This document shows, in pieces, positions 19,698-25,996 of a stretch of DNA of 26,033 nucleotides. The DNA is taken from positions 1 through 26,033 of the IMG/VR virus record IMGVR_UViG_3300031576_000262, one strand, 5' to 3'. The notes beneath the pieces were generated by a model, which saw only the letters and a program-made list of their open reading frames with translations, did no database searches and was not told the DNA's origin. Position 1 is the stretch's first letter. The number at the start of each line of letters is the position of its first letter. Made by a program: the position numbers and the translations under genes. Origin of the DNA: a virus.

Positions 19698-20183
19698 ATG
19701 AATCTGCCATACGATTACTACCCGGCTGTTTTGAACGTAATAGACCTTATTTCTCAGGGCTATACGAAAACGTCTGCGTGTGATGAAAACAATATTCACA
19801 TGACGACTTTCGACAACTATATCAAAAACAATCTGACACTCCAAGAGTTATTAATCGAAGCGGAACAACGTTGCTACGATGCAATGGCCGACGCGCTGCT
19901 AAACCCGGACAACCACGACATCTACGGACACTCAGACCCTAAGATGGCGAAAGTGCAATCCGACAACATGAAGTGGTTTCTTGATAAGAAAGATCGTAAA
20001 CGTTACGGCGAACGCGTAACAGTAGACCATAATCTTACAGCAGATAAAGCTATTGTCGCTGCGCTCACAGCAGGCAGACAACGCGCCCATCATTTAGAGT
20101 TTAGAGACGTAGAGGAAGCTGAGTTCGTTGACGTGACGCCTGTTAATGAAGATGAAATACTTCTAGCTGAAATCTGCTCTTAA
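19698..20183 (+). CDS. terS: Putative terminase small subunit, 161 aa (only plus-strand gene)
   Basis: Probably the DNA-recognition partner of the large terminase. Residues about 8-45 (YPAVLNVIDLISQGYTKTSACDENNIHMTTFDNYIKNN) form a helix-turn-helix of the type small terminases use to bind the packaging site. The segment near 100-120 (MKWFLDKKDRKRYGERVTVDH) is a well-known small-terminase pattern. The C-terminus is acidic. It lies 17 nt from the large terminase in divergent orientation, and its stop overlaps the convergent repeat-protein stop by 4 nt. An in-frame TAG at 19680-19682 rules out an upstream start, and I see no Shine-Dalgarno site. Because the gene runs against the whole operon it must have its own plus-strand promoter. 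A DNA-binding regulator is the alternative. Confidence 0.82.
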   Translation: MNLPYDYYPAVLNVIDLISQGYTKTSACDENNIHMTTFDNYIKNNLTLQELLIEAEQRCYDAMADALLNPDNHDIYGHSDPKMAKVQSDNMKWFLDKKDRKRYGERVTVDHNLTADKAIVAALTAGRQRAHHLEFRDVEEAEFVDVTPVNEDEILLAEICS

Positions 20184-21226
20184 CGTCTACGCCGTCTATA
20201 GGACGGAATGTAGTTCGTACCTGCTCTGTAATCTAATCCCGTAGCATTACCCGTCAAAATATAATGTCCAGTGTCAACCGCCAAGAACGCGGCTGAGCCA
20301 TAGAACAACCCGGCGTTTTGTCCAAGCAGAGAATAGCTGCCTGTTATAACTGTCATGCGTGAGTGCTTCCGTAAAGAAGCGTCATTGCCTGTTAAATTAT
20401 AAACCCCTGTGTCCGGGTAAAGCTTAGCTATGTGACGTAACACAACGTCTTGTCCCGACAGCGCATAGGCTCCCGCCGACACAGGCATACTAAACGATTT
20501 ACGCAAGCCTGCGGCATTACCTGTTAAAATATACGCGCCTGCTGTCACGGGCATATCTATCCCGGCATGATGATGGTCTAATCCTGCGTCGTTTCCAGTA
20601 AGGATATAAGCGCCCGCCGTGACAGGCATCTTGAATCCTTTAGCCGTAAGGATGCCTTGGCCTGTTAAAACATACACACCTGTCGTTACGCCAAGATTCA
20701 AATATGTTTTCTTAAGTATAACATTTTGACCTGACAGAACATACGCCCCCGTATCCGCTATCAGCTTAAACGCTTTCCTAAGAACAGCCGCTTGACCCGA
20801 CAGGACATACGCACCCGCAGTCACGATCAGATTCAAATACGACTTACGTAGATTAACTGCTTGACCCAATAGCGTATATGCTCCTGTATCTGCTATAAGC
20901 TTGAAATTCTTTCTTAGCACTACGGCTTGACCCGACAAAGAATACGCTCCTGTTCCCGCAACTAGATTGAGCCACGACTTACGTAGGTTAATTGCTTGAC
21001 CCGATAGCGTATAGACGCCCGCAGTAACAGGAAGCTTAAGCCCTCGCTTTAGAACAGCAGCTTGGCCGGACAGTGTATAAGCACCCGCAGTAACAGGAAG
21101 CTTAAGCCCTCGCTTTAACCCAACGGCTTGACCCCCAATAGCATACACACCTGTTGTAATCCCTACAGTATATTCTCTAGGGGCAGGCCGTGGTATACCA
21201 AAGATGCCTAGTCGCGTTACGGCCAT
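20180..21226 (-). CDS. TGxYxLTGQ repeat protein, 348 aa, 14 tandem repeats
   Basis: From about residue 26 to 335 the protein consists of 14 repeats of 22-25 residues with the core TGAYxLSGQ(A/D)xxLRK or TGxYxLTGNxAGL. A short N-terminus (MAVTRLGIFGIPRPAPREY) and a basic tail (YIPSYRRRRR) flank them. The repeat would give one or two short strands and a turn per unit, suggesting a beta-solenoid or beta-sandwich rod; that is inference. Repeats alternate between a KLIADT and an LNLIVTA-type linker, so the unit may really be a pair. I have seen such repeats in other phage structural regions, but know no function. It lies downstream of the LamG and 201-residue genes, with only 7 nt between it and the latter. 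A role as virion fibre or surface decoration is plausible. SD is weak. Confidence 0.8.
   Translation of the reverse strand: MAVTRLGIFGIPRPAPREYTVGITTGVYAIGGQAVGLKRGLKLPVTAGAYTLSGQAAVLKRGLKLPVTAGVYTLSGQAINLRKSWLNLVAGTGAYSLSGQAVVLRKNFKLIADTGAYTLLGQAVNLRKSYLNLIVTAGAYVLSGQAAVLRKAFKLIADTGAYVLSGQNVILKKTYLNLGVTTGVYVLTGQGILTAKGFKMPVTAGAYILTGNDAGLDHHHAGIDMPVTAGAYILTGNAAGLRKSFSMPVSAGAYALSGQDVVLRHIAKLYPDTGVYNLTGNDASLRKHSRMTVITGSYSLLGQNAGLFYGSAAFLAVDTGHYILTGNATGLDYRAGTNYIPSYRRRRR
21018..21117 (-). repeat. 34-bp exact direct repeat within the repeat-protein gene
   Basis: Positions 21018-21051 and 21084-21117 are identical, offset by 66 nt, which is exactly 22 codons. The encoded repeats 1 and 2 share the KRGLKLPVTAG stretch. 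This points to a recent in-frame duplication or gene conversion near the N-terminal end. Confidence 0.85.
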
Positions 21227-24350: not shown

Positions 24351-24983
24351 TTATGAGAACGGCGTAGTTTCCGAACCTGTCTCTGTAACCTGACCGGATA
24401 CGCACCACTTAGTGGTAACACAGTCCGTAAGAGTTACTCTATCACCGATAGAAGCGCCTCCTTTGGTTGTACCATTTAAAGTGATTGTGCCGCCCGAAGC
24501 CTCGAACGCCAACGCAGCATTAGAAGCGTTGTCCGAGGCGTACAGTAGACTTCCGTTCATTGTGTCAGAACCCGCTTTGGTAATGACATAGTTGGAAGTA
24601 TTGACTGCCCCTACGACGAACGTATACACCGCGCCGGAACCTGTCGCGGCAGGCATTGTAAAGGTTCTCGAAGAACCCGCGCCTCCCAGGACAAGAATAC
24701 GGTTAGCGTGTGTCGCTGACGTTAGGGTTGTATCGACAGCTAACGAGACGAGGTTCCCCGCGCCGAAGCCGGGGATGCCTGTAGCGTCAACGCGTTTTAC
24801 CTTGTCTGCGGAAACGTCGTATACTGGAATAAAGTCACCCGCCGCAACTGCGCTAGGAGCTAAACTGTCCAGTGAGGGGATGCCAAAGTAGGCAAGGTCA
24901 ATGCCGCCTTCGGCTCTTGCAACGCCGACGCCTGCGATCAGGAGCGCCGCTACAAGCAGTAGGGATGCTTTTAGGTTTTTCAT
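24351..24983 (-). CDS. Secreted beta-rich phage protein with Sec signal peptide, 210 aa
   Basis: The start is the ATG at 24983, with AAAGGA seven bases upstream; a longer frame to 25028 lacks such support. Residues 1-24 are a classical signal peptide: MKNLK, a hydrophobic core (ASLLLVAALLIAGVGVA) and an ARA|EGG cleavage site. The mature part is beta-rich: SRTFTMPAATGSGAVYTFVVGAVNTSNYVI (near 99-128), then AGSDTMNGS, and ITLNGTTKGGASIGDRVTL and CVSGQVTETGSETTPFS at the end. This last region resembles modules found in phage virion proteins, which normally have no signal peptide. There are two cysteines near the C-terminus (about 191 and 197). It forms a single-gene unit between a promoter at 25028-25056 and a terminator at 24300-24329. 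A periplasmic or surface role in the infected host is the simplest reading. Confidence 0.7.
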   Translation of the reverse strand: MKNLKASLLLVAALLIAGVGVARAEGGIDLAYFGIPSLDSLAPSAVAAGDFIPVYDVSADKVKRVDATGIPGFGAGNLVSLAVDTTLTSATHANRILVLGGAGSSRTFTMPAATGSGAVYTFVVGAVNTSNYVITKAGSDTMNGSLLYASDNASNAALAFEASGGTITLNGTTKGGASIGDRVTLTDCVTTKWCVSGQVTETGSETTPFS

Positions 24984-25061: not shown

Positions 25062-25202
25062 TTAAAAAAGGCTTAACTGATTATCCTGTTCCGTCTTTAG
25101 CTGCTTTCTTTTCCGGCCTTTGAATATGATTATAGGCAGGCATACAAGCCCCGCCAGTAGCAACAAACACGCCATCATTAAGTGTGTGGTTTCTGTACAC
25201 AT
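25062..25202 (-). CDS. Membrane microprotein ending in QLSLF, 46 aa
   Basis: Translated by hand: an ATG at 25202 with GGAG seven bases upstream, open for 46 codons. A polar start (MCTETTHLM) is followed by one clear membrane helix (about 9-27, MACLLLLAGLVCLPIIIF), then a strongly basic stretch (KGRKRKQLK) and TEQDNQLSLF at the end. The positive-inside rule predicts that the C-terminus is in the cytoplasm. The last five residues are identical to the consensus motif by which bacterial proteins bind the DNA-polymerase sliding clamp. It overlaps the 56-residue frame for 122 nt in another frame. It lies between a terminator and a promoter and has no known relative that I recognise. A holin or other lysis protein is also possible. 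Confidence 0.5.
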   Translation of the reverse strand: MCTETTHLMMACLLLLAGLVCLPIIIFKGRKRKQLKTEQDNQLSLF

Positions 25203-25251
25203 CGTTACGCTCCTGTTCTGTTACGTTTTCTAAATGCTTCTTGTGATTCAT
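25081..25251 (-). CDS. Small overlapping reading frame, 56 aa
   Basis: Translated by hand from the ATG at 25251, which has AAGGG nine bases upstream, to TAA at 25081. The product (starting MNHKKHLENVTEQERNDVYR, ending KKAAKDGTG) is soluble and basic and has no recognisable motif. Its last 122 nt overlap the membrane microprotein in a different frame, which starts within it behind GGAG. It may be a leader that couples translation of the membrane protein, or only one of the two may be made. It starts just behind the terminator at 25279-25310, so its promoter is not obvious. Confidence 0.42.
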   Translation of the reverse strand: MNHKKHLENVTEQERNDVYRNHTLNDGVFVATGGACMPAYNHIQRPEKKAAKDGTG

Positions 25252-25278
25252 TCCGTAGTTCCCTTCTTTTAATAAGAA

Positions 25279-25310
25279 GAGGGCGGTAAGCCCTTTAACC
25301 TACCGCCCTC
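25279..25310 (-). terminator. Strong intrinsic terminator after the coiled-coil gene
   Basis: Arms 25279-25288 (GAGGGCGGTA) and 25301-25310 pair perfectly over 10 bp with a 12-nt loop. The minus-strand tail reads TTCTTATT. It lies 44 nt past the stop at 25354. The rest of 25252-25353 contains no gene I can see. Confidence 0.82.
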
Positions 25311-25353
25311 CTTGCCTTTAGCACCGTTCACGCTCTGGAGAACTGAACCCCGT

Positions 25354-25947
25354 TTAAATCTTACCTAAGTTGTCGATAGACCCGTGCAAGGACTCGCTGT
25401 CTTTCTTAGCAGCTACTAGCGTTCCTGTAGTCTTCTTAAGTTCGGTAATCTCGTTCTCCAAGCTCTTGATACGGCTTTCGAGTGAGTTGATGCGTTCGCC
25501 CTGCTCTTTAAGCTGTAGCTTTAGCTGTTTTGCTAAAATGTCAAAGATACAGCGGGCGTCTTCGTCGAGGTGCTTTTCTAAGTCCTCGTCGCTATAGTCT
25601 CCGGGGCGTCCGAGGGTACGCTTCTGACGTTCCACTGTATCGTTCGCCCCTAGCGGCTTTGGGTCAACAACGTCTCCGTCTTCGCCAACGCGTTCACCGC
25701 TTGCGGGTTGGCCTGTAACGGGGTTGTGAGCTTCCGTAACCTTGCCGTCCTTGTCTGTCTCGTCAACGACGGGATTGTCCGTAACGCTGCCTTGACGGTT
25801 GACGGAGCCTTCACCGGAATCAGCCTGTCCGATTGGCGGCGACGCAGGGGGCGTAGCCAGTTCGGTTGCGCGTTGGGCCTGCTGGTCTTTGGTCCGTTGC
25901 TTCGCATCTTCCTTGGCCTTGTTCTTCTGGGCTTGAGTTTGTGACAT
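25354..25947 (-). CDS. Disordered and coiled-coil protein, 197 aa
   Basis: The N-terminal 120 residues are polar and of low complexity: a lysine/glutamine-rich start (SQTQAQKNKAKEDAKQRTKD), a TPPASPPIGQ stretch and aspartate/glycine-rich segments. From about 135 to 180 there is a good leucine-zipper-like coiled coil (FDILAKQLKLQLKEQGERI, then LESRIKSLENEITELKK). No signal, membrane segment or catalytic motif is seen. Of the possible starts I prefer the ATG at 25947, nine bases from AAGGA; an ATG at 25953 and a longer frame to 26025 are alternatives. It has its own strong terminator. Function unknown; an assembly or scaffold-like factor is one guess. Confidence 0.55.
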   Translation of the reverse strand: MSQTQAQKNKAKEDAKQRTKDQQAQRATELATPPASPPIGQADSGEGSVNRQGSVTDNPVVDETDKDGKVTEAHNPVTGQPASGERVGEDGDVVDPKPLGANDTVERQKRTLGRPGDYSDEDLEKHLDEDARCIFDILAKQLKLQLKEQGERINSLESRIKSLENEITELKKTTGTLVAAKKDSESLHGSIDNLGKI

Positions 25948-25996
25948 TTTCATATTTCCTTCTCGAAGGAGGGGGTAGGTGTGGTCAGGCCAACTC

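Follow-up and report, generated by a model that had tools for sequence, protein, structure and literature searches.

The stretch of DNA analysed here, referred to as the window, comprises the complete 26,033 bases of an IMG/VR podovirus fragment, in which portal, major capsid, tail and terminase genes were recognised with PHROGs. The large terminase subunit shares 39-41% identity with its counterparts in epsilon15 and similar podoviruses, and the gene for the small subunit (positions 19698-20183, plus strand) is divergent from the large-subunit gene, an arrangement common to the relatives. Two small minus-strand frames are nested in the window. The outer frame, p56 (25081-25251), encodes a soluble protein of 56 aa, while the inner frame, p46 (25062-25202), encodes a 46-aa single-helix membrane microprotein with the sequence MCTETTHLMMACLLLLAGLVCLPIIIFKGRKRKQLKTEQDNQLSLF. 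The latter consists of a helix at approximately residues 8-27, a basic stretch at residues 28-36 and the C-terminal pentapeptide QLSLF at residues 42-46. As described in the initial annotation, the frames are out of phase and share 122 nt; p46 is in the +1 frame relative to p56. Both frames also possess the ribosome-binding sites attributed to them: the AGGAG of p46 (25210-25214, minus strand) was read from the sequence inside p56, 7 nt before the ATG, whereas p56 is preceded at 9 nt by the weaker site AAGGG. A programmed frameshift from p56 into p46 was considered and dropped, as visual inspection of the stretch that is open in both frames ahead of the p46 ATG showed no slippery site.

The neighbours of p46 are a coiled-coil protein, p199 (25354-25953, minus strand), and p210 (24351-24983, minus strand), which carries an apparent signal peptide and is predicted to be exported. 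Between p199 and p56 lies a strong intrinsic-terminator-like hairpin (25277-25312, minus strand; fold -29.3 kcal/mol, z -4.9). In its C-terminal domain, p210 shows a relationship to capsid-adjacent proteins from Rhizobium phages and from pelagiphage HTVC023P. The p199 family is conserved upstream of the terminase in relatives, and p199 itself ends in SLHGSIDNL. The coiled-coil-like proteins of this family are otherwise highly divergent, but a C-terminal LHGx[IV]xxL was found in 11 relative loci (L203, L204, L205, L206, L210, L211, L213, L222, L223, L226 and L227), and its conservation suggests a functional C-terminal peptide.

The sole syntenic relative, L204, whose terminase is 73% identical to that of the window, contains in order a coiled-coil gene, a hairpin terminator, a short frame, an exported p210-like protein, a p134-like protein and TerS. 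Its hairpin is placed as in the window (-33.4 kcal/mol, z -4.6), the exported protein is 29% identical to p210 over 201 aa, and the p134-like protein is 35% identical to p134. By eye, an apparent Sec signal peptide is present in both p210 and its L204 homologue (L204:941-1546), and another in the next L204 gene (1634-2101), the p134 homologue, whereas the p134 of the window lacks one. The short L204 frame, 45 aa long and located at the position of p56, starts with MNVQQHKEHLERVAQQAYERH compared with MNHKKHLENVTEQERNDVYRNH in p56; the local alignment gave a shuffle p of 0.0004 for a similarity that spans 20 residues in one relative. This likeness is suggestive of the outer frame being a gene. 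The codon score of p56 is typical of the window's genes, and the joint chance of an open p56 frame with such a score, given p46, is near 0.016. We therefore consider p56 as probably the older small gene of the pair.

In contrast to p56, p46 has no counterpart in L204, where no membrane ORF was found in its position or frame. Among the remaining relatives whose sequence extends upstream of the terminase, none has anything resembling p46, and no homologue came to light in viral contigs, phage records, bacterial genomes or related phages. DNA and protein searches of phage records for the locus returned no match, and neither did back-translated scans with p199, p210, p46 and p56, although distant homologues could escape these scans because exact 8-residue stretches were required. 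The QLSLF end, which the initial annotation had proposed to look for in related phages, was thus absent from them together with p46 itself and is left without comparative support. The same annotation had held that relatives keeping only the 56-residue frame would speak against its functional reading of p46; L204 does display this pattern, albeit by the weak 20-residue similarity and as one relative only.

The membrane helix and the basic stretch ascribed to p46 were both borne out. The helix has a Kyte-Doolittle 19-residue mean of 2.88 and appears in a single-sequence AlphaFold model as one helix covering residues 3-45 (mean pLDDT 77, pTM 0.33). The sequence KGRKRKQLK follows the helix, and the positive-inside rule predicts a cytoplasmic C-terminus, so that the charges point to an N-out/C-in topology. 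A hydrophilic linker of 14 residues separates the helix from QLSLF.

Whether p46 is a gene at all was assessed from its helix and its codon usage. Among out-of-phase segments of the window's genes (n=273), the maximum hydropathy was 1.67 as against 2.88 in p46. If selection on p56 alone were responsible, synonymous versions of p56 should sometimes yield such a helix; however, none of 20,000 synonymous shuffles reached the p46 score, and their median was 0.5. Same-strand nested ORFs of equal score do occur (3 of 3,468 in the 2.19 Mb of the window and relatives), but only two of the 94 nested ORFs with an ATG and a good ribosome-binding site reached 2.5. One of these two, an L215 ORF scoring 3.44, is evidently a real gene with two helices, since L217 and L219 contain similar ORFs. 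A membrane helix by itself depresses the codon score. That of p46 is poor (-0.8, below 1% of in-frame windows), and p46 might therefore yet be non-coding. An accidental open frame within p56 would fit this score, the gene-like score of p56 and the presence of only a p56-like start in L204. Set against the helix that synonymous p56 versions fail to produce, the rarity of such helices among well-initiated nested ORFs and the combination of ATG and AGGAG in p46, we regard such an accident as improbable. Weighing the outlier helix and the shuffles against the codon score, we conclude that p46 is probably, though not certainly, expressed as a genuine gene.

The C-terminus of p46 corresponds exactly to the consensus clamp-binding pentapeptide QL[S/D]LF (PMC12309361), as the initial annotation pointed out. 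The natural C-terminus of Bacillus subtilis PolC is also QLSLF; the peptide binds the clamp there with a KD of 3.8 uM and binds the Escherichia coli clamp approximately five-fold more tightly (PMC12309361). In transposases, QLxLF is usually C-terminal, and the full consensus QLSLF improves clamp binding in a peptide or protein (PMC4549789). At the composition of the window, the chance of an exact C-terminal QLSLF is about 5.5e-7 per protein and that of QL[SDAT]LF about 2.7e-6, yet these low values apply to a single protein, and QLSLF is one among many motifs that could be noticed across very many ORFs and windows. None of the 22,669 ORFs of relatives carries QLxLF within 3 residues of the C-terminus. 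The DNA methyltransferases of two related prophages contain QLDLF near the C-terminus (L160:7814-8560 and L174:4889-5569, both minus strand), possibly as a clamp-binding motif, and such tags are therefore present in nearby phage proteins, on DNA enzymes. A scan of the collection for a hydrophobic run followed by a C-terminal QLxLF, with permuted LQxLF as the comparison, gave 32 and 73 stretches, respectively, and hence no excess of the motif. This result says little, because the pattern, which needed 12 consecutive NTN codons and is not matched by p46 itself, was too strict and most matches lay out of frame.

These observations allow a reading in which the cytoplasmic tail would fit into the host sliding clamp at its hydrophobic pocket and so retain the clamp at the membrane or titrate it there, which would disturb host replication or gather clamps for phage DNA synthesis. 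The identity of the tail with the PolC motif, its terminal placement as in transposases, the linker that parts it from the helix and the methyltransferase tags all agree with this proposal, and proteins that block DnaN are known from S. aureus phages (PMC3594737). Two of them, Twort gp168 and G1 gp240, are likewise small phage proteins, and p46 would share their target; compared by description, they differ from p46 in that the source does not describe them as membrane proteins. PolC and the transposases, which resemble p46 in bearing an identical or consensus QLxLF at a free C-terminus, are soluble DNA enzymes, whereas p46 is a 46-aa membrane protein without a DNA-related domain, and its clamp-binding motif is a putative one. 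To our knowledge, a membrane-bound clamp decoy has no precedent. Retention of the tail could not be seen without a p46 homologue, syntenic L204 lacks p46, C-terminal QLxLF is missing from the ORFs of relatives, and the AlphaFold model, built from one sequence and of low reliability, renders the tail helical. A role of p46 as clamp tether or decoy appears unlikely, and we are quite doubtful that a recently overprinted microprotein anchors the host clamp at the inner membrane as a decoy through its PolC-type tail. The takeover device suggested initially accordingly gained no support from the sequence comparisons, in which p46 homologues were absent from everything searched and L204 had no membrane frame.

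Holins of the T7 gp17.5 type possess a single helix with N-out/C-in topology. p46 resembles them in its one helix, short length and basic tail, predicted to be cytoplasmic, but no holin profile from Pfam, NCBIfam or PHROG matched it, and it lacks adjacent lysis genes, its neighbours being the coiled-coil p199 and the predicted exported p210 rather than endolysin or spanin genes. Lysis genes of the Rz/Rz1 type are small and nested out of phase, with one membrane-associated product, as are p46 and p56. The p46 tail is, however, too short for a spanin, and the Rz-like PHROG match was weak (E 0.27). An Rz1-type spanin lipoprotein was rejected, as the surroundings of Cys12 (MMAC) and Cys21 (GLVC) fit no lipobox. 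Weak profile matches to AmaP (E 0.018) and PIRT (E 0.008) fell well short of the cutoffs and were discounted.

The explanation that we tentatively prefer, as one that is quite possible, is that p46 is a genuine lineage-specific protein with a membrane or envelope role. Overprinting of the older short frame, p56, would have given rise to it; the protein would insert N-out/C-in through its one helix, and its most likely site of action would be the host inner membrane, alongside the exported proteins whose genes adjoin p46. Such an accessory envelope cassette might act in a holin-like manner, in superinfection or at the host surface. The QLSLF end would then be incidental or not so far subject to selection that can be seen, having come about by chance or been acquired recently. 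This envelope role is favoured because the downstream neighbours look exported, namely p210 and, in L204, its homologue and the gene that follows. The underlying observations are the frames, the outlier hydrophobicity, the AGGAG at ideal spacing from the ATG, the L204 synteny and the absence of p46 from L204 and everywhere else searched. Small membrane proteins with two helices, similar to one another, also adjoin TerS at the matching place in L215 (6438-6632), L217 (3487-3684) and L219 (1356-1553). On the other side, p46 has neither an endolysin gene nor any other proven lysis gene beside it, the poor codon score could mean a non-coding p46, and an exact clamp motif at a free, predicted cytoplasmic C-terminus is unlikely to arise by chance in one given protein. 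By eye, the spanin- and holin-like ORFs of relatives sit elsewhere.

If the tail does bind DnaN, p46 would represent a minimal decoy that overprinting had created for the replication clamp at the membrane, and it could serve directly as a genetic tool for relocating the clamp. If it does not, p46 adds to the orphan membrane microproteins of phages and counsels caution when pentapeptide motifs are interpreted in orphan proteins of small size. Two further features were recorded. The small membrane protein of L215 shows a weak likeness, below the cutoff, to Pfam Phage_holin_2. In the window, positions 20180-21226 (minus strand) encode a putative 348-aa protein built of numerous short repeats (TAGAYxLxGQ...).
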